Part shown: piece after piece, positions 7,216 through 53,012 of the stretch
Position numbering within the stretch: the stretch's first letter is position 1
How the letters are laid out: each line of letters opens with the position of its first letter
DNA from: Hyphomonas sp.
Lineage (GTDB): Bacteria > Pseudomonadota > Alphaproteobacteria > Caulobacterales > Hyphomonadaceae
Assembly (NCBI GenBank): GCA_017792365.1
Contig: CP051229.1
Span: 3,223,725 to 3,287,724, forward strand
Reading direction: 5' to 3'
Length of the DNA: 64,000 nucleotides
Position numbers and translations under genes: made by a program
The notes under the pieces: model-generated
What the model saw: the letters and a program-made list of their open reading frames with translations, nothing else
Database searches by the model: none
What the model was told of the DNA's origin: nothing

Positions 7216-9915
<2,700 letters not shown>

Positions 9916-10012
9916 CGGGGGCTATCCGCTCTCATCTGCGCCGGGAACGCCCGGCACGCTTGCTAAAAGCCGTCGTTCCGGGGATTGTGAGCCGGCAAGG
10001 ACGCCAAATGTG

Positions 10013-10024
10013 TAAACCGGTTTA
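10013..10024. promoter_or_regulatory. 12-bp palindrome in the secA / parvulin intergenic region
   Basis: TAAACCGGTTTA is a perfect palindrome in an AT-richer stretch, 98 bp before secA and 113 bp before the parvulin lipoprotein gene. Position and symmetry suggest an operator or promoter element for one or both genes. I cannot name a regulator. Confidence 0.3.
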
Positions 10025-10136
10025 AATTACCGATTTGCGCTATCGCGACACGTAAGGACCAGCCTATTGAGTGTCAATCCGAGCGCGTGGCGTCGCCGCC
10101 TCGGACCACAGTTTCAGTGTTCAGGGAGTTTCCCCC

Positions 10137-11120
10137 ATGCAGGTCAGGATTGCGCAGATTGCAGCTGTATTGGCGGCATCCGCGGGTCTTGGACTGTCTG
10201 GCTGTGACCAGCCCGCGCCGCTGACGGAAATGGCTGTAGTTGAGGATTCTTCTGCAGTTGCCGCCTACGTTGACGGCCAGCCGATCTATGCCTCCGACGT
10301 GATATTCGCCGCCGAGGCCGAGGGCGCCATCGAAGCCGGCGACGCCCTTGAGCCGGACAGCCCGGAATTCAATCGGGTGCTGGATGGGCTGATCGACGTG
10401 CGCCTGATGGCGATGGAAGCGGAGGCGAGGGGACTGGACGAGGACCCGCAGTCGCGGTTCCGCCTCCAGTCGATCCGCGAGAATACCTTGTCGAATATCC
10501 TGATCGAGACGGTTGTCGCCGAGCGCGTCGATGAGGCCGCCGTGCGCAAGATGTACGAAGCGCAGATTGCCATATCGGAACTCGGCGAAGAGGCTCGCGT
10601 GCGCCAGATCGTGACCGCCACAAAGAGCGACATGGATCAGGTGATTGCGGAGCTGGATTCCGGGGTGGATTTCGCGATCGTTGCGTCCCAGCAATCGATC
10701 GATGAGCCCACCCGGCTGGAAGGCGGCGATCTTGGCTATCTCAAGGAAGACGAGGTGCCGCCAGCCTTCGCCCAGGCCATTCTCGCCACGGCGACGGGCG
10801 GCGTCTCGCGTCCGTTCGAGACGGCCAATGGCTGGCGCATCCTCAAGGTCGAGGAGCGTCGCGAGGAGGCGCCGCCGTCCCTCGAAGAATTGCGCGGGCC
10901 GATCCTGAATTATCTCGGCATGATCGAGATCGACAAGCTGCTAAAACAGCTGCGGTCGGAATCGGCGATCGACCGCCGCTCCAGCGCGTCTGCGCCTGCC
11001 TTGCGGACCGACCCGTTCTCCATCGCGCCGGAAGAAGAGGATGTCGATGAAGCGCCGCCTCGCATCGAGGCGCAGGCGGAAACGGCCGACAGCGCCCCGG
11101 AAGCTGGCGAGGCGCAATAG
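10137..11120 (+). CDS. parvulin-type peptidyl-prolyl isomerase lipoprotein
   Basis: Periplasmic folding factor of 327 residues. The start at 10137 gives a lipoprotein signal with lipobox LGLSGC, then a SurA/PpiD-like N-terminal helical segment. A PpiC (parvulin) domain follows at about residues 130-235, with EEARVRQIV, GGDLGYLKEDEVPPAF and PFETANGWRILKV as the typical landmarks. A low-complexity acidic tail ends the protein. It lies next to secA (divergent) and 3 bp before argJ, so it may act on exported proteins. The upstream open frame from 10071 is excluded because it would bury the signal peptide. Confidence 0.88.
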   Translation: MQVRIAQIAAVLAASAGLGLSGCDQPAPLTEMAVVEDSSAVAAYVDGQPIYASDVIFAAEAEGAIEAGDALEPDSPEFNRVLDGLIDVRLMAMEAEARGLDEDPQSRFRLQSIRENTLSNILIETVVAERVDEAAVRKMYEAQIAISELGEEARVRQIVTATKSDMDQVIAELDSGVDFAIVASQQSIDEPTRLEGGDLGYLKEDEVPPAFAQAILATATGGVSRPFETANGWRILKVEERREEAPPSLEELRGPILNYLGMIEIDKLLKQLRSESAIDRRSSASAPALRTDPFSIAPEEEDVDEAPPRIEAQAETADSAPEAGEAQ

Positions 11121-44702: not shown

Positions 44703-44787
44703 GCGGGTGTGGTGGAATTGGTAGACGCGCCGGACTCAAAATCCGGTTCCGCAAGGAGTGTGGGTTCGAGTCCCACCACCCGCACCA
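44703..44787 (+). tRNA. tRNA-Leu (anticodon CAA)
   Basis: A class II tRNA with a 7-bp acceptor stem GCGGGTG / CACCCGC, the D-arm GGTGGAATTGGTAGAC, an anticodon stem CCGGA / TCCGG with loop CTCAAAA (anticodon CAA), a long variable arm, and TGGGTTCGAGTCCCA as the T arm. The CCA end is encoded. The length of 85 nt fits Leu. Confidence 0.97.
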
Positions 44788-44823: not shown

Positions 44824-45612
44824 CTAGCGGGCCATGGCCGCGACGACGATGATCGCCAAATTGTCCGGCGCGCCTTCGGATGTGCACGCCGTTTCGATCG
44901 CCTCGACCATCTCTTCGACCGATGCACCGGGGCGGGAGAGTTGCGCTTCAATCTCGCTGTCGCTCATCACAGCGGTTACACCGTCGCTGCAGAGCAGGAA
45001 GCGATCGCCTGCCTCCACGCTGCCGTAGGCTGTCTCCAGCTCCAGTCCTTCATCGATGCCGACCGCGCGCGTTATGGCGTTCGCGCCGTAGACGCGCTTA
45101 GCGTTCAATTCATCCACCAGGCCGGTATCGATCACTTCCTGTAGGACGCTGTGGTCCCGCGTGATAGGCTGCAGGCGGCCGTTTCTCAGGAGGTAGGCGC
45201 GGCTGTCCCCGGCCCACATGCATGCAAAGTGTCTGTCGTGGATATAAAGCGCTGCGACGGTCGATCCCATTCTCCGGATGCTTCGCTGAGAAGCGAGGGC
45301 GCGTATCTCTGCGTTCGCGGAGTGGATGGACGCTTCGACTTGCTGGCCGCGCTTGTAGGGAGATCCTCGCAGCATCAGACCGGCCAGCGAATCCACAACC
45401 ACCTGACTTGCGACCTCGCCCGCGTCATGCCCGCCCATACCGTCCGCAACCGCCCAGAGACCGGTTTCAGGACGAACAAGAATCGCGTCTTCATTGGCCG
45501 GTCGGACGCAGCCGCGACTGGTTCTGCCAAATGACGTGATGCATAGCTCACTTGTCGCCAGACGTTGGGTGGCATCGCCGCCAACAGGATCGAGCGTGCG
45601 TGAGGTGGTCAC
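44824..45612 (-). CDS. PP2C-family Ser/Thr protein phosphatase
   Basis: A 262-residue metal-dependent phosphatase. PP2C motifs are complete: PANEDAILV, AVADGMGGHDAGEVAS, WAGDSRAYLLRNG, LLCSDGV and PDNLAIIVV, holding the Asp residues for the binuclear metal site. In T6SS loci such a protein (PppA) reverses kinase PpkA. It is the last of five overlapping genes and starts at GTG 45612 inside the FHA gene stop (GTGA), so it is translated with its probable antagonist kinase. Confidence 0.92.
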   Translation of the reverse strand: MTTSRTLDPVGGDATQRLATSELCITSFGRTSRGCVRPANEDAILVRPETGLWAVADGMGGHDAGEVASQVVVDSLAGLMLRGSPYKRGQQVEASIHSANAEIRALASQRSIRRMGSTVAALYIHDRHFACMWAGDSRAYLLRNGRLQPITRDHSVLQEVIDTGLVDELNAKRVYGANAITRAVGIDEGLELETAYGSVEAGDRFLLCSDGVTAVMSDSEIEAQLSRPGASVEEMVEAIETACTSEGAPDNLAIIVVAAMAR

Positions 45613-46529
45613 CGCCCGCCCCCTTTCAGCGCTTCCCGGTAGGCGTGGCCCACGACGTCATCCCCGCTCTCGATCTCGGTCATCAGGCGATTGATACGCG
45701 TCTCGTATTCGTGAAGGAGCTCCTCCGCTGTGGCGTTGGGGCCAACGGCGGCGCGCACCTGTTGCGGCGAAAGCGTCTCCATGATGATGCGGCTGGAGCC
45801 TTTTCCGGTCTTCGCCAGCGCGTCGCAGTGGGCGCGCAGGTCTCGAAAGGACTCAGCGATTGCTTCCGCGCCCTTCAGAAAGCCGCCTGAAGTTCCCTTC
45901 ACGAGATCAACAGCGATGCTGGCCGCCGGCGCCCATTTGAACGGGTTGTTCTTCCAGCCCCCGACCGTGGTGCGATCAAGGTGCAGCTCGGCTTTGAACA
46001 GCGCGCGATCGCGAAGCATGTCGCACATGTCTTCGATGACCTGCCGGTAGATTCCGCCGAGGCGCCACATGACAGCCTGCGCATCCTGGCCAGCGTATGC
46101 GCCGGGCTCGAGCCCGGCGCCTTCGCAGAATGAAGCCAGAAGTTCAGCCTGTGTAACGCCTTGCGGGGCTTCGGTGGGGTCGGAAGCGGTGGCCGGTTCG
46201 GCGCCATCGTTGTCGGCCGCCAACTCCGTCGTCAGGATGTAATCGCCGATATAGATGGCGTCGCCCAAAGCGAGATCGTGCTGTTCGTTCTTGGGAAGGC
46301 TCGTGCGCTTCATGCCGACTGCGACGCCGTTTGTGCTCAAGTCGACGATCGTGAGCCTGTCTCCCTCGCAGGCGATGGTGCAGTGGCGACGCGAAATCTT
46401 CGCGCCTGCATCGGCAAGCTGCCACTCGCAAGCCGGATCCCGACCGATCGTCAGCGAACCGGAATCAAGCAAGCGGTGCTCAAGCTGCTCAAACGGCGCG
46501 CTGGCGATAAAACTGCGGATGACGATCAC
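45609..46529 (-). CDS. FHA-domain protein with TagH-type C-terminus
   Basis: A 306-residue protein. The N-terminal FHA domain has the phosphothreonine-binding residues GR (29-30), SxxH (46-49) and N67. The C-terminal half (about 140-270) resembles the T6SS FHA_C domain of TagH/ImpI/VasC: LDRTTVGGWKNNPFKWAP, GFLKGAEAIAESFRDLRAHCDAL. In T6SS systems such proteins are kinase targets that switch assembly. Here no secretion genes are nearby. The start is GTG at 46529, overlapping the restored kinase stop (GTGA). Confidence 0.85.
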   Translation of the reverse strand: MIVIRSFIASAPFEQLEHRLLDSGSLTIGRDPACEWQLADAGAKISRRHCTIACEGDRLTIVDLSTNGVAVGMKRTSLPKNEQHDLALGDAIYIGDYILTTELAADNDGAEPATASDPTEAPQGVTQAELLASFCEGAGLEPGAYAGQDAQAVMWRLGGIYRQVIEDMCDMLRDRALFKAELHLDRTTVGGWKNNPFKWAPAASIAVDLVKGTSGGFLKGAEAIAESFRDLRAHCDALAKTGKGSSRIIMETLSPQQVRAAVGPNATAEELLHEYETRINRLMTEIESGDDVVGHAYREALKGGGR

Positions 46530-48138
46530 GACGCTTCCCGCAACTGCTGGTCAGCGGTCAGTGGCGCGACAGACTGAGTTGGCAGCGTGCGCTCAGGCTG
46601 CATGGAGCCGACCAGTTGTTGAAGTCGTCGTAAAGCTCGCCGAATTCGTCGCTGCGATTGTGGGAGATGCGGAAGTCGTGGTCGCCGTCAGCAGCGCCTT
46701 TCATTGCCTTCGCCAGCCTGCGAAGCGGGTAGAAGGTCATCTTCCCGACTGCATAGCTGAGCGCGAGCATCACGATGGTCGTGACCAACCCGACGCCGAT
46801 CAGGAGCCAACTGCTGGCGCTTTCCGCCGCCGTGACCGACTCGTCGCTGAACGTCAGATAGACTGTGCCAACCTCAACGCCGGAATAGATGATCGGCTCG
46901 GCTACATCGAGCCCGGCTGCTTTTTCTGAGCCGTAAGTATGTGATCGGCCGACCATGTTGGGATCATTCGAGCCGCGGATGACATTGGTTTTGTCGACGA
47001 CGGTCAGTGCGAGGATGTTCGGGTCGCTCGCGACGGTTTGGGCGAATGCCTCGATCGGCAGCCAGTCGGCTTCCTCGACGGGCAGGGCGACATTCTGCAT
47101 CATCGGGAGGGCGGCGTTCGCGCTGATGAATCCCGCGACCGCGCGTGCGGATGTTTCGGCTACGTGATCCATCGCCCGGCTTTGATTGCCCGACACGATC
47201 GACAGCGCTGCAAAAGAAACGAGCGCAAACACGAGTGTCGCTGCGGATGCAAACTTCAGATAGAGCGGCAATCCGCGGCGTTCTTCTGCGATGGCGCCCT
47301 GGATGGAAATGCTCTCGCGCTTAAGAGCGTCGGCCAGCGCCTGTGCATCTGCAAAGCGTTGCTTCGGCAGCTTTGCCAGCAGCTTCTGGATGATGTGCTG
47401 GAGCCCGCGCGGACACTCGGGCGTGGACTGGATCGGCGGCGGCTCGGTGCCGGTGATCTGCAGTGCGAGCGTTGCAACGCTGGACCCATCGAAGGCGGGG
47501 CGACCGGCCACCATTTCATAGAGAACTGCGCCGAGCGAAAACAGGTCGGACCGGTTATCGATATCGTGCCCCAAGGCCTGTTCGGGGCTCATGTATCGCG
47601 GCGTGCCCAGCAGCTCGCCAGCATGCGTCAGGGCGAGGCGTGTGGCGTCAGTTTCCGATGCGGGACCCGCGACCCGAGCAATGCCGAAATCGAGGATCTT
47701 GATCGTCCTCTTGTCCCTGCCGAGGATCATGTTGGACGGCTTGATGTCGCGGTGGATGACGCCGTTGGCGTGCGCATATCCCAGCGCCTCCGCAAGCTGG
47801 CGGCCAAGCTCCAGCACCGTCTGCGGATCGAAGGCGGTTTCATCCGCCAGCACCTCGTCCAGGGGGCGGCCTTCCAGCAGCTCCATGGCGATGTAGGGAA
47901 CGCCGTTGTCATCGCCCACGTCGTGGATGGTCACGATGTTTGGGTGCGCCAGCGCGCCCGATGCCCTCGCTTCTCTCAGAAACCTCTCGACGCAATCAGC
48001 GTCCTGACGAAGCTGCTCGTTCAGAACCTTGATTGCGACGTCGCGCTGGATCTGAGGATCGAACGCCCTGTAGACGCGTGCCATCGCGCCTTCGCCCAGC
48101 TGATCCCGGATCTCGTATTTGCCGATCGATTTCATCAC
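46526..48138 (-). CDS. membrane Ser/Thr kinase with extracytoplasmic sensor and HAMP (frameshifted at the end)
   Basis: About 537 residues when read through a frameshift at 46616-46621. The kinase domain (residues 8-265) has the G-loop GEGAMARV, Lys37 (AIKVL), HRDIKPSN (129-136), DFG (150-152) and SPE. TM1 is near 292-316, an extracytoplasmic domain of about 125 residues lies at 317-442, TM2 is near 443-465, and a HAMP-like region follows. So the kinase is cytoplasmic and N-terminal while the sensor is outside. As read, the last residues are wrong (NNWSAPCS); one missing C restores NQLVGSMQPERT and a stop overlapping the FHA start. Confidence 0.85.
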
Positions 48139-48860
48139 CGTGTGACCGCTTGCTGGATCGACCGGGCGCGCTTCAGATCGCTCTCGAGATTCTTGTTGTC
48201 GCCATCAATCGCGTAAGCGGCCGCGAGGAGTTGGACGGCAAGGTCGGATTGCCCTGCATTCAATGCCTGAAGTCCGCGCCGCCGCAGGTCTCGGGACTTT
48301 TCGGCGTCGGCGGGCGACAGCGCGGCGAGCGTTGCAGCTCCCGTTGTCTTGGCTCCTGCAAGCTCGGGGGCATCAGATGCGCCGGGGATTTTGAGCACGA
48401 CGCCGACGTCGAGCGATTGTGCGGAAGAAAGGCCGTTGTATTTGCTCAACGCGTGGAAGAGGAGCGGATCGCCCAGGTGCTGAGCCGCCAGGGCCGAAAG
48501 CGTGTCGCCCGCCTTGACGGTGTAGGTGTGGTGAGCCTCGCCAAGCAGCGCCACAGGGTCTGTTTCGATCTGGCGCATCATGGTGAGAGCCGTCTTGTTG
48601 GACGGGTTTTCCTTCAAGACCGCTTCGAGCAAGGCCTTCGCTTCGGGTTCATTACCCGCATCGAGAAGCGTGATTGCTCTCTGGATTGGCGTCGGCCCTG
48701 CCGGCTGCTCAGTCTGGGACGTTTCGGCCGAGGCTGGCATTGTTTCGACAGTGGCGGGCTGCTCGGCTGCGACTTCGGCAGACCCAGTCGGTTGCGGCGC
48801 AAGGGAGCACGCAGGGAGCAGGAGCGCCACAAGGATGAGGCAAGGACTATGGCGCGTCAT
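48135..48860 (-). CDS. LysM-domain lipoprotein with TPR-like repeats
   Basis: A 241-residue lipoprotein (lipobox LLLPAC, Cys18). TPR-like helices at about 57-98 (AITLLDAGNEPEAKALLEAVL) are followed by a LysM domain at 112-158 (YTVKAGDTLSALAAQHLGD), which would bind peptidoglycan. A further helical repeat (GLQALNAGQSDLAVQLLAAAY) ends it. It overlaps the phosphodiesterase stop and the kinase start by 4 bp each. An envelope sensor feeding the kinase is a reasonable guess, like TagQ in P. aeruginosa T6SS regulation. Confidence 0.82.
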   Translation of the reverse strand: MTRHSPCLILVALLLPACSLAPQPTGSAEVAAEQPATVETMPASAETSQTEQPAGPTPIQRAITLLDAGNEPEAKALLEAVLKENPSNKTALTMMRQIETDPVALLGEAHHTYTVKAGDTLSALAAQHLGDPLLFHALSKYNGLSSAQSLDVGVVLKIPGASDAPELAGAKTTGAATLAALSPADAEKSRDLRRRGLQALNAGQSDLAVQLLAAAYAIDGDNKNLESDLKRARSIQQAVTR

Positions 48861-50266
48861 GGCGCACTCCGCTCGGTGAGGGTGTTGTTGTCGCGATTGA
48901 GCTCTCTCAGGACGTCGGCGAGCCATTCCGGTTTGGTCAGCTTGCTGCCGAGAAGGTCGGCAGAACGCGGACGCGAGAAGAAATAGCCCTGGTAGAGATT
49001 GCATCCGAGGCGACGAAGCATCCTCACCTCTTCGGCCCGCTCGACGCCTTCTGCGAGGACGGTCACGCCAAGCTCGTGGCTAAGACGGATGATCGCGCGA
49101 CAGATGGACTGGCGGACCGGGTGTTGGTCGATGTCGGCGACGAACGCGCGGTCAATCTTCACCTTGGTGATGGGCAGGTTCTGCAGATTGAAGAGATTGG
49201 AGAAGCCGACGCCGAAGTCATCGAGTGCGATCCCAAACCCCATCTCGCCGAGTTCGCGAAGCAGGGCCGCATTGCGCGCCTGATCGTCCATTGCGGCTGT
49301 CTCTGTCAGCTCCAGTTCGATGTCGCGCGGGGCCAGATTATGAGCGCTGATTGTCTGGAGGATGACATCCTTGAGGTCGGGGCGCCGGAGCTGGACAGCC
49401 GACAGATTCACGGCCAGCCGGAGGTGAGGATAGCCCGCCCTGCGCCAGACCGTGATTTGCCTGCATGCCGTGTTCAGAGCCCACAGCCCGATCTCGTGGA
49501 CCAGATCGGATGACTCCAACAGCGGGACGAAGACGCTCGGCGAGACTTCACCAAGCGCGGGCGAGTTCCAACGCAACAGCGTCTCGGCGCCGACGACCTG
49601 GTTGTCCTCGATATTGACTTGCGGCTGGTAGCAGAGGGACAGCTGACCTTCCCTGACGGCGCGGCGGAGCGCCTGATCAAGGGAGAAGCGGCGAACGCTG
49701 TCTCGCGCTCGATCGAGGGCGTTCGACGCGCCGTCTCTTCCAAACTGCGCACGGGGGCAGGCGGCTTCCCGCGCGCGTCGGCACACATTCACCTCTGGTT
49801 CGTCCGCCTTTCCGGCGCGCGCCAGTCCGATATGAATGTCGGGGGCGAGCGTATAGCGCCGTTTTGTGACGTCCTGAGCCAGGATGTAGGCAAGCGAGTC
49901 GAGTTCGGCCTCAACCGTTTCAGCCGGGGTGTGGGCCTCGAACATGATGCAGAAGGTGTCGTCATCGAGTTCAATGAAGCGACGGCTGCTTGCAAGTTCG
50001 AGGCGGGACTTCAAGGCTCCGAGAAAGAGAGTCGCGTGACGCGGATCCCATGCGGTCACGAGCGAAGCATTCGCCACCCGTAGTACGCCGACCCAGAGGA
50101 AATCCTCATCGGGTTCGTTCGCGCCGCAGAGAGCGACGCCATCAACCGAACCATGGTGGGCCGAAAGGGGGGTAGGGCTGTCGGGTGACTGATCGATTGG
50201 CAAAGCGGATTGCCGCGCGGCTTCATGCGCACGCTCGACTACCAGCCGATCCGCAGAATACGACAT
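48857..50266 (-). CDS. EAL-domain c-di-GMP phosphodiesterase with degenerate GGDEF region
   Basis: The EAL domain (C-terminal 250 residues) has the expected active-site motifs: AETLLRW (ETL for EAL), VNLSAVQLR, ELTETA, LDDFGVGFSNL, KVKIDR and AEGVERAEE, so hydrolysis of c-di-GMP is likely. The N-terminal 200 residues have the shape of a GGDEF domain but no GGDEF motif. It is cytoplasmic with no TM segment. The start is ATG at 50266 behind GAGGGCGAGA, rather than GTG 50278. It is the first of five overlapping genes. Confidence 0.85.
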   Translation of the reverse strand: MSYSADRLVVERAHEAARQSALPIDQSPDSPTPLSAHHGSVDGVALCGANEPDEDFLWVGVLRVANASLVTAWDPRHATLFLGALKSRLELASSRRFIELDDDTFCIMFEAHTPAETVEAELDSLAYILAQDVTKRRYTLAPDIHIGLARAGKADEPEVNVCRRAREAACPRAQFGRDGASNALDRARDSVRRFSLDQALRRAVREGQLSLCYQPQVNIEDNQVVGAETLLRWNSPALGEVSPSVFVPLLESSDLVHEIGLWALNTACRQITVWRRAGYPHLRLAVNLSAVQLRRPDLKDVILQTISAHNLAPRDIELELTETAAMDDQARNAALLRELGEMGFGIALDDFGVGFSNLFNLQNLPITKVKIDRAFVADIDQHPVRQSICRAIIRLSHELGVTVLAEGVERAEEVRMLRRLGCNLYQGYFFSRPRSADLLGSKLTKPEWLADVLRELNRDNNTLTERSAP

Positions 50267-50344
50267 TCTCGCCCTCACTAGAGGACGATAATGTCATGAC
50301 TAACCTTACGCCGACTTAATATCCTAGATTAGCAGGGTCATGGT

Positions 50345-50564: not shown

Positions 50565-53012
50565 ATGCTGGATTACAGACGGACGGTATCACTTCGGGCA
50601 TTTGTCTGCGCGGGGGTAAGCGCGCTGGCGCTGAATGTCGGCTGCACGGCGGTTGGGCAGGAATCCAGCATCGTTCAGCCGGGCGCGCCTGGCGCGCCTG
50701 CCCGCGTGCTGAGCGCCGAAGAAGCGACGCGCATTGCAGATTCCAATTATTCGCCGGAGGACGTGCTGTTCCTGCAGGCGATGATCCCGCACCACCAGCA
50801 GGCGCTGGAGATGGCGGAACTGGTCGATGACCGCACCAACCGCCAGGAGATCATCGACGTCGCCGGCCGCATCGACGATTCCCAGGCTGACGAGATCGCG
50901 TTCATGGAGAACTGGCTGCGTCAGCGCGGCGAGCCCGCGGGCGCGGCTCACCACAACATGCACGGCGCGCATGGGATGATGGGCATGGCGACGCCGGAAC
51001 AGATGGCGGCGCTTGCTGCAGCAGAGGGCGCAGCCTTCGACCAGCTGTTCCTGGAGCTGATGATCACCCACCATGAAGGCGCCTTGACCATGGTGGATGA
51101 GCTGTTGAGCCAGCCCGGCTCGGCTTATGACCCGCTGCTGTTCGAGTTCGTCAACGATGTCGACAACGACCAGAACGCCGAGATCGAGCGGATGAACGCG
51201 CTGCTCGCCTCGCTGTCGCCCGATCCGCGCGCGGGGTTGGCGGCGGGGTTCCGCGATGCGGGCGAAGCGATCAGCAACATGCGGTTGATCGCAGCGCTGC
51301 CCAAGCCCGACGGCTTCTTTGATCCGGCCAACCCGTCGGGCCTGCCGCCGATCAAGGAACCGCTTGAGGGCGAGGAGGAGGCCGAACAGGCGGCGGACGA
51401 AGAATCCGACGACGATGAAGACAGCACGCAGTACGGCCGTCGTGCGCCGCTGATGAGCTTCTCGAACACCGACATGGCGTTCTCCGGCGATGTCCTCGCC
51501 GCGGGCAATTATCACGGTTTCAACCTGTACAGACTGGGCGCCAACGGCGTGCCCGACCTCGTGAGCTCGGTCGTGTGTCCCGGCGGTCAGGGCGACGTGT
51601 CGATCGTCGGCAACCTTCTGATCATGTCGGTGGAGCAGACGCGTGGACGCGTGGACTGTGGCCGCGAAGGCATTCGCGAGGAGGTCAGTGAGGAACGGTT
51701 CCGCGGCATCCGCATCTTCGACATCAGCGACCTCGCCCGTCCCCGGCAGGTCGGGCAGGTGCAGACCTGCCGCGGCTCGCACACGCATTCAGTGGTCGCC
51801 TCCGATGACCGGCGGATCGTCGTCTACAATTCCGGCACCGCGCGTGTGCGCGACGAGGAAGAGCTCGACGGCTGCATCGGCGAAGTGATGGGCGACGATC
51901 GCACGGTCCTGTTCCGCATCGACGTGATCGAGATCCCGGTCGCCAATCCTGCGGCTGCGCGTATCACCAGCAGCCCGGCAGTATTCGCGGATCCCGAGAC
52001 CGGGCGACTGGCCGGTCTTTGGCGTGGCGGGGACCACGGCGATGAGACGCAGCGGACCAGCCGTACAGATCACTGCCACGACATCACGGTCTTTCCTGAA
52101 CTCGATCTGGCGGCGGGCGCCTGCTCGGGCAACGGCATCATCTTCGACATCTCGGACCCGATGCAGCCCAAGCGGATCGACGAGGTCGTCGATAAGGGCT
52201 TCGCCTACTGGCACTCGGCGACGTTCAACAATGACGGCACCAAGGTTGTCTTCACCGACGAGTGGGGCGGCGGCGGCCGCGCGCGGTGCCGCGCATCCGA
52301 TCCGATGGAGTGGGGCGCAAACGCAATCTACGCGATCGAGGACCGGCAGCTGGAGTTCCAGAGCTATTACAAGCTGCCAGCGCCGCAGACGGACGAGGAG
52401 AACTGCGTCGCGCACAACGGCTCGGCCCTGCCGGTGCCGGGTCGCGATATCTTCATTCAGGCCTGGTATCAGGGCGGCATTTCGCTGATGGACTTCACTG
52501 ACGCCGAAAATCCCGTGGAGATCGCATACTTCGATCGTGGCCCGGTCAACGAGGATCGACTCGTGATGGGTGGATACTGGTCTGCGTACTGGTATGGCGA
52601 CCGCATCTACGGGACAGAGATCGCGCGTGGACTGGACGTGTTCAGCCTTCAGCCGAGCGAACATCTGAGCGCGAACGAGATCGCGGCAGCTGGCCTCGCA
52701 GATCAGGACGGCGTGTTTAACCCACAGCAGCAATTCGCGGTCGAGTGGCCAGCCGATCCTGTCATCGCGCGCGCCTATATTGACCAGCTCGAACGGTCTG
52801 AGGCGCTGCCGGCAAACCAGATGGCTGCGCTGAGCAATGCGCTCGATGAGGCTGCGTCGGCGCTGGACCGGGGGAGGCGTGCGGGCGACGTGGCGCGGCG
52901 GCTTGAGACTCTGGCTGGCGAGCTGTCGGCCGCAGGACTAAGCGCCAAAGACGCAGACCGCCTCGCGTCGCTTTCCAGAACGCTGAAGGATATCGCCGCG
53001 CGGCTCACCTGA
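50565..53012 (+). CDS. DUF305-LVIVD fusion protein, secreted
   Basis: An 815-residue exported protein. The N-terminal half (residues about 60-215) is a DUF305 ferritin-like helical domain with two His pairs, MIPHHQQALEMAEL (76-77) and MITHHEGALTMVDEL (169-170), and a His/Met-rich loop HHNMHGAHGMMGM, all good metal (copper) ligands. A very acidic linker (EEEAEQAADEESDDDEDS) leads to a beta-propeller of LVIVD-type repeats (IFDISDLARPRQVG, IFDISDPMQPKRID, LMDFTDAENPVEIA). A helical tail ends it. The start ATG follows AGGAGCGGGGA. Function unknown; metal handling is a guess. Confidence 0.85.
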   Translation: MLDYRRTVSLRAFVCAGVSALALNVGCTAVGQESSIVQPGAPGAPARVLSAEEATRIADSNYSPEDVLFLQAMIPHHQQALEMAELVDDRTNRQEIIDVAGRIDDSQADEIAFMENWLRQRGEPAGAAHHNMHGAHGMMGMATPEQMAALAAAEGAAFDQLFLELMITHHEGALTMVDELLSQPGSAYDPLLFEFVNDVDNDQNAEIERMNALLASLSPDPRAGLAAGFRDAGEAISNMRLIAALPKPDGFFDPANPSGLPPIKEPLEGEEEAEQAADEESDDDEDSTQYGRRAPLMSFSNTDMAFSGDVLAAGNYHGFNLYRLGANGVPDLVSSVVCPGGQGDVSIVGNLLIMSVEQTRGRVDCGREGIREEVSEERFRGIRIFDISDLARPRQVGQVQTCRGSHTHSVVASDDRRIVVYNSGTARVRDEEELDGCIGEVMGDDRTVLFRIDVIEIPVANPAAARITSSPAVFADPETGRLAGLWRGGDHGDETQRTSRTDHCHDITVFPELDLAAGACSGNGIIFDISDPMQPKRIDEVVDKGFAYWHSATFNNDGTKVVFTDEWGGGGRARCRASDPMEWGANAIYAIEDRQLEFQSYYKLPAPQTDEENCVAHNGSALPVPGRDIFIQAWYQGGISLMDFTDAENPVEIAYFDRGPVNEDRLVMGGYWSAYWYGDRIYGTEIARGLDVFSLQPSEHLSANEIAAAGLADQDGVFNPQQQFAVEWPADPVIARAYIDQLERSEALPANQMAALSNALDEAASALDRGRRAGDVARRLETLAGELSAAGLSAKDADRLASLSRTLKDIAARLT

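Follow-up and report, generated by a model that had tools for sequence, protein, structure and literature searches.

A TagH-type FHA protein encoded with a membrane Ser/Thr kinase, a PP2C phosphatase, and an EAL protein in a Hyphomonas genome with no type VI secretion system found

Threonine phosphorylation in the type VI secretion system (T6SS) involves a kinase, an Fha protein, and a phosphatase, whose roles are set out in a review (PMC10482370). The components are PpkA, Fha/TagH, and PppA, along with TagQRST in Pseudomonas aeruginosa and RtkS in Serratia. In Agrobacterium tumefaciens, Fha binds phospho-TssL (PMC3953482). Another point of comparison is PknB/Stk1-Stp1-GarA/OdhI signaling. Here, we describe an operon from Hyphomonas sp. 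that resembles the T6SS pathway in co-encoding a kinase, a protein with a T6SS_FHA_C domain, and a PP2C phosphatase, with an envelope lipoprotein beside them. Unlike that pathway, it lies in a genome in which no T6SS was found (five families searched), and it includes a predicted EAL phosphodiesterase. The lipoprotein is of the LysM/TPR type; we liken it to TagQ as an envelope lipoprotein only, with no kinship implied.

The operon occupies positions 44824-50266 of the window, by which we mean the whole 64-kb stretch of DNA analyzed and to which all coordinates refer. An earlier reading of the letters alone (the sequence-only reading) had named five genes and their domains in this order, and Pfam matches for all five, on the minus strand, bear it out:

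48857..50266, minus strand: EAL protein, 469 aa from ATG (PF00563, 1.1e-72)
48135..48860, minus strand: LysM/TPR lipoprotein, 241 aa, with lipobox Cys (PF01476, 1.3e-8)
46558..48138, minus strand: membrane Ser/Thr kinase, 526 aa as sequenced (PF00069, 3.5e-50; HAMP, 6.1e-6)
45609..46529, minus strand: TagH-type FHA protein, 306 aa (FHA, PF00498, 2.1e-13; T6SS_FHA_C, PF20232, 2.8e-25)
44824..45612, minus strand: PP2C phosphatase, 262 aa (PP2C_2, PF13672, 2.4e-14)

The same reading placed a 4-bp overlap at every junction. Three of the four are genuine (48860, 48138, and 45612); at 46529 the GTGA is present, yet the kinase ORF ends at 46558, 28 nt ahead of the FHA start, and that part of the claim falls. 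Across the seven five-gene loci, a start at -4 is available in all seven for both EAL to LysM and FHA to PP2C, in three for LysM to kinase, and in two for kinase to FHA. A tRNA-Leu (44703-44787) adjoins the window operon. We rejected tRNA-side integration, since 12 of the 13 other scanned stretches have no tRNA and in the remaining one, L088, both tRNAs are at least some 2.6 kb away from the operon. The comparison of flanks found no gene common to all the loci compared.

The FHA protein scores above the cut-offs of curated models, both for TagH (TIGR03354, 170.8 bits versus 120.25) and for T6SS_FHA_C (89.6 versus 23.7), the domain for which a Pfam check had been proposed, yet no T6SS association was found within the five families. 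Its pThr-binding residues Arg30, Ser46, and Asn67 are invariant in 13/13 sequences. In a sequence search of the PDB, only the FHA part had relatives of known structure, GarA and OdhI being closest, and these matches are limited to roughly positions 15-110 of the profile. A single-sequence structure model of the protein had a mean pLDDT of 39.8 and was set aside. The kinase consists of a kinase domain, an ectodomain between two hydrophobic segments, and HAMP, with catalytic residues invariant in all 13 sequences. The Pfam scan found no single Cache domain in the window kinase; in relatives this domain is above cut-off only in L044, and under it in L010 and L012. A kinase-tail motif, picked after the tails were inspected, was matched by 9, 10, and 8 of 12 tails when written as three patterns. 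In the phosphatase, four Asp positions are invariant in 13/13 sequences and the Glu41 column in 12/13. The LysM match (35.1 bits) exceeds its cut-off of 20.9, and the lipobox Cys column aligns by eye in 13/13 sequences.

The operon is also like PknB/Stk1-Stp1-GarA/OdhI signaling, in its kinase domain, its Stp1-like PP2C, and an FHA domain that is closest, among solved structures, to GarA and OdhI. It is unlike that system in that the kinase (300 bits, Stk1/PknB model, cut-off 450) and the phosphatase (189 bits, Stp1-like PP2C model, cut-off 230) both fall under the NCBIfam cut-offs, and the Pfam scan of the window kinase found no PASTA domain. Anti-phage defense was considered but not adopted as a reading: apart from hits of the kinase type, PADLOC gave a single weak hit for the PP2C and none for the FHA, LysM, and EAL proteins. 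The kinase matches 36 PADLOC families, PD-T4-6 being among the anti-phage kinase systems compared; among the 25 matches listed, most stay inside the kinase domain and a few reach residue 335-383.

The EAL protein, whose frame has its earliest start at a GTG at 50278, comprises a degenerate GGDEF-like part without the GGDEF motif and then an EAL domain. Eight positions that we take to be its active-site residues are all present in the window protein and are invariant in the alignment (6/6 sequences). With these residues and the PF00563 match, it has the features by which the EAL domain of c-di-GMP phosphodiesterases is recognized. Judged by eye in the alignment, the window protein has no N-terminal membrane segments, which its relatives possess. 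Hydrolysis of c-di-GMP by the EAL protein is the best candidate for the output of the module.

The sequence-only reading found no T6SS structural gene in the 64 kb and named a full T6SS cluster in the same genome, under the control of this locus, as evidence that would overturn its view. The absence extends to the whole 3.40-Mb genome, a single contig that is 100% complete: VipB, TssK, Hcp, DotU, and IcmF-related families gave 0 matches each, no cluster was found within these five, and each family was detected in a control genome. Six further carrier genomes of the taxonomic order are likewise negative for the same five families. Two observations count against a stand-alone module: G530 has a T6SS-type gene set on a separate contig, and the five genomes of the DotU/TssL variant described below (f44) have Hcp-family matches. 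The VipB search was run without G530, G531, and the Sphingobium plasmid, and G738 was searched for VipB alone. In a sample of the phylum, 68 of 70 genomes with T6SS_FHA_C also carry VipB, and for this reason the stand-alone copies represent an uncommon side branch of the threonine-phosphorylation pathway known from the T6SS.

Conservation of gene order outside the window, on which the sequence-only reading also depended, is found: besides the window genome, five genomes from three families and the Sphingobium plasmid AP027331.1 have the five genes in identical order. Within the taxonomic order, 7 of 150 genomes are carriers, that of the window included. The kinase, LysM protein, FHA protein, and PP2C occur together in all 14 stand-alone loci, of which seven have the five genes, two are without EAL, and five have DotU/TssL. 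Three FHA searches of plasmids (98, 29, and 76 records) gave at least one stand-alone case, AP027331.1, while two further plasmid FHA matches sit in T6SS clusters. The FHA-only match L011, a weak hit from the contig scan, was rejected as a module copy because no other module gene accompanies it. In the tree, the stand-alone rows form one supported group (98/91) enclosing a single T6SS row; they also group in a second tree made without six long-branch T6SS rows (L028, L035, L038, L039, L043, and L079).

In the f44 variant, the TagH-type protein lies beside DotU/TssL, with lipoproteins, one of them a polysaccharide deacetylase, and neither IcmF/TssM nor TssK was found with this cluster. The pairing recalls the Fha-TssL docking described in Agrobacterium, from which it differs in the absence of IcmF/TssM and TssK; the window genome, for its part, has no DotU. 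By that analogy, TssL would be the likely docking partner in this variant. We suggest, at somewhat less than even confidence, that T6SS_FHA_C is a general output domain rather than a T6SS part as such, around which at least two signaling machines free of the T6SS have formed. One would be a switch, linked to EAL, that leads from the envelope to c-di-GMP; the other would be a complex of the envelope, linked to TssL, that has lipoproteins and no TssM. These would be either derived from the T6SS or survivors of the signaling stock on which the T6SS drew.

The earlier proposal that the locus is a relative of the PpkA/Fha/PppA pathway standing on its own is supported, as are T6SS_FHA_C in the FHA protein, the gene order kept elsewhere, and the absence of five T6SS families from the genome. 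The roles it gave to the LysM protein and the kinase ectodomain (reading the cell wall), to FHA (carrying the output), and to EAL (coupling to c-di-GMP) are putative. We see about an even chance that the locus encodes a transmembrane phospho-signaling module that descends from this pathway, works without a secretion machine, and has c-di-GMP hydrolysis as its output in the five-gene branch. The invariant or near-invariant active sites, the FHA pThr residues, and the 4-bp overlaps kept at two junctions are consistent with such a module. The LysM lipoprotein would be held on peptidoglycan in the envelope and, with the kinase ectodomain, may sense the state of the wall or envelope. The HAMP-linked kinase, once turned on, would phosphorylate threonines on itself and its partners, as its catalytic residues suggest. 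The TagH-type protein, with its binding residues intact, would use its FHA domain to dock on phosphothreonine, which may lie in the tail of the kinase itself; T6SS_FHA_C may then recruit or control the output. In the five-gene branch, gene linkage and an intact active site point to c-di-GMP hydrolysis by EAL as that output, and the PP2C, by analogy with PppA, would reset the switch.

A less probable, though still considerable, alternative is that the module functions and EAL is an unrelated passenger, the true output being a different pThr partner of the FHA protein that is not linked to the operon. EAL is missing from half of the stand-alone loci (7/14), each of which has the other four genes, and this counts against our reading; EAL is therefore the mark of one branch and not part of the core. 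No other output gene is common to the compared flanks. However, all seven loci that have EAL place it first and overlap it by 4 bp with the next gene, in differing surroundings, and its active site is invariant in 6/6 sequences.

It is improbable that the operon is a decaying regulatory remnant of a lost T6SS, without a function of its own. Such decay would agree with the patchy spread noted above, with the long branch of the window FHA protein, and with the kinase tail: the post-HAMP tail known from relatives is found in another frame of the same window DNA, and the window kinase is therefore frame-shifted after HAMP, truly or by sequencing error. The long branch and the tail both weigh against a working module. 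However, active sites are intact in up to 13/13 sequences, the same order is shared by three families and a plasmid, and the stand-alone proteins make up one tree group rather than scattered losses. Control of a missed T6SS or other contractile machine, divergent or on an element missing from the assembly, would suit a domain that is otherwise a T6SS companion and a search of five families with other contractile systems outside its scope, but is very improbable given the complete one-contig genome, the control detections, and the six negative carriers.

To return to the stand-alone module, in carrier genomes where no syringe was found the phosphorylation switch has probably taken on a different role, for example cell-envelope sensing. 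Since curated models call the FHA protein a T6SS part, annotation may list a secretion component in genomes of this kind, although no secretion system was found in them. If the module works, it would present the phosphorylation switch separated from the syringe, so that the binding partner of T6SS_FHA_C could be asked about directly, and it would connect c-di-GMP turnover with an envelope Ser/Thr kinase within one operon.

The sequence-only reading had described an EAL protein, a LysM lipoprotein, a kinase, a TagH-type FHA protein and a phosphatase in consecutive order, and the domain scan confirmed these genes, their order and their domains:

44824-50266, minus strand: EAL protein, LysM/TPR lipoprotein, membrane Ser/Thr kinase with HAMP, FHA protein with a T6SS_FHA_C domain (PF20232), PP2C phosphatase

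The FHA protein scores 170.8 bits against the NCBI TagH model TIGR03354, above the cut-off of 120.25. A 4-bp overlap had been claimed at every junction; this held at three of the four, but the kinase ORF stops at 46558, and the FHA gene starts 28 nt later, with no overlap. The continuation found in related kinases sits in a different frame of the same window DNA (46558-46620 region), so the window kinase tail is frame-shifted and the ORF closes early, whether through mutation or sequencing error. The frame change spares the kinase domain, the ectodomain and most of the HAMP domain. The T6SS_FHA_C match of the window FHA protein covers profile positions 1-140 of 180, whereas the eight further matches in the order sample all span 1-179 or 2-179; this does not fit a simple picture. 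A tRNA-Leu (caa) gene adjoins the 3' end of the operon (44703-44787, plus strand), and 50565-53012 encodes an 815-aa protein with an N-terminal DUF305 (7.2e-44) and a long remainder, unassigned apart from a weak FIMAH-like match at its end.

The absence of T6SS genes, first claimed for the window, extends to the whole genome for the five families searched: VipB, TssK, Hcp, DotU (TssL) and the IcmF-related family (TssM) each gave 0 matches in this 3.40-Mb, single-contig, 100% complete genome. Each family search recovered one of 14 control genomes, E. coli. T6SS_FHA_C normally accompanies a T6SS, and the window falls in a group of exceptions. Counting the window's genome, VipB is missing from 4 of 18 carriers in the class sample (385 genomes), from 2 of 70 in the phylum sample (398 genomes; the other is G738), and from 7 of 9 in the order sample (150 genomes, where VipB occurs in 2, both carriers); the three samples share some genomes.

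We compared 14 stand-alone loci: the window, six order-sample loci, G188, G315 and G487 from the class sample, G530 (contig 75) and G531 from the family of G188, G738 from the phylum sample, and plasmid AP027331.1 of Sphingobium. The Sphingobium relative points to Alphaproteobacteria as the probable class of the window's genome. VipB was negative in 11 genomes of these loci (all except G530, G531 and the plasmid), with G738 searched for VipB alone; TssK, Hcp, DotU and IcmF are missing from the plasmid record, to which that search applies. Conservation of the gene order beyond the window had been proposed as a check, and the identical five genes and order occur in five further genomes, spread over three families (f1, f3, f17), and on the plasmid, or 7 of the 14 loci (window, L010 on the plasmid, L012, L014, L015, L016 and L088). 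An EAL-less variant (L013 and L017, one genus) has FHA, PP2C and LysM genes with an oppositely oriented kinase gene, and EAL does not adjoin them. The remaining five loci (L044, L045, L046, L047 and L049), all in family f44, carry PP2C, DotU, FHA, LysM protein and kinase, with extra genes between; identities come from a Pfam scan in L044 and L046 and from similarity and position in the others. Among the intervening genes, L044 and L046 both have one for a polysaccharide deacetylase, and L044 also has some for TPR proteins. Thus, the kinase, LysM protein, FHA protein and phosphatase are kept in all 14 loci. However, EAL is present in only half, which counts against a simple picture. Among the matches listed for ten loci against the window, no flanking gene is common to all, and a single one is common to L014 and L016, from one genus.

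By its gene content, the f44 cluster appears to be another case of TagH and TssL employed in the absence of a T6SS: IcmF and TssK were not found in four of its five genomes. However, G530 carries TssK, DotU, IcmF and a second TagH together on another contig, again against a simple picture. Also at odds with it, each of the five f44 genomes yields one or two Hcp-family matches; the weakest scores 24.3 bits (G188) and the strongest 122.2 bits (G531).

The T6SS_FHA_C domain tree contained the 14 stand-alone rows and 50 T6SS-type rows, the latter being any row off the stand-alone list; these came from VipB-positive genomes, except L043 (G530), which has TssK next to it. The stand-alone rows and one T6SS row (L034, genome G471) form one group (support 98/91), and in a second tree without six long-branch T6SS rows this group of 15 is supported at 99/97, and a topology placing all 14 in one clade is not rejected (p-AU 0.142). 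The seven five-gene rows group together (99/98); adding the two EAL-less rows gives a group of nine (99/81). A single gain of EAL, at the base of the five-gene branch, is thus probable. Nesting among T6SS rows in the unrooted tree favours derivation of the stand-alone copies from T6SS, though T6SS copies may have come from a stand-alone stock. At 1.3 changes per column, the branch of the window FHA protein is a long one, which also argues against a simple picture. In VipB-positive G471, one stretch (L089) has FHA proteins at 1319-2932 and 9303-10154 near TssK-like, DotU-like and IcmF-like ORFs (labelled by eye); the former is the only T6SS row within the stand-alone group.

Positions that we take to be functionally relevant are largely retained, in counts that exclude L088 (absent from the alignments). 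All 13 kinases retain the catalytic Lys, HRD Asp, DFG Asp and activation-segment Glu, and eight active-site positions do not vary among the six EAL proteins. Four PP2C Asp positions are unchanged in 13/13 (Glu41 column, 12/13), and so are FHA Arg30, Ser46 and Asn67; FHA position 47 holds Arg in 11 sequences and Lys in the other 2. By eye, the LysM proteins align at their lipobox Cys in 13/13, and no GGDEF motif was seen in the degenerate GGDEF part of the six aligned EAL proteins. An acidic-x-Thr-aliphatic motif occurs in 9 of 12 parsed kinase tails (window and L088 excluded; shuffle mean, 0.44), and it is a lead only, because the pattern was picked once the tails had been seen, and five of the rows are closely related.

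How might such a module work? In T6SS, as outlined in PMC10482370, an envelope signal reaches a kinase that phosphorylates a target on threonine, with participation of an FHA protein, and the phosphatase PppA resets the pathway. PMC3953482 describes binding of TssL phosphothreonine by Agrobacterium Fha, which agrees with DotU adjoining FHA in the f44 variant. Because TssL was not found in the window's genome, the FHA partner there would be something other than TssL. The best candidate output is the EAL enzyme, whose linkage and intact residues are seen and whose effect is proposed. A precedent for a role beyond secretion comes from Vibrio cholerae, whose TagH affects haemolysin according to PMC8993066, although this species does have a T6SS.

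Judged by titles and abstract openings, open PubMed Central full text, a scope outside which subscription papers and preprints lie, yielded no description of a T6SS-free TagH module or of the five-gene order. The stand-alone five-gene module is new as a variant. Altogether, the operon is a real and conserved relative of the T6SS phosphorylation pathway that stands alone and is probably functional, and we offer its proposed role in linking the envelope to c-di-GMP as a reasoned hypothesis.
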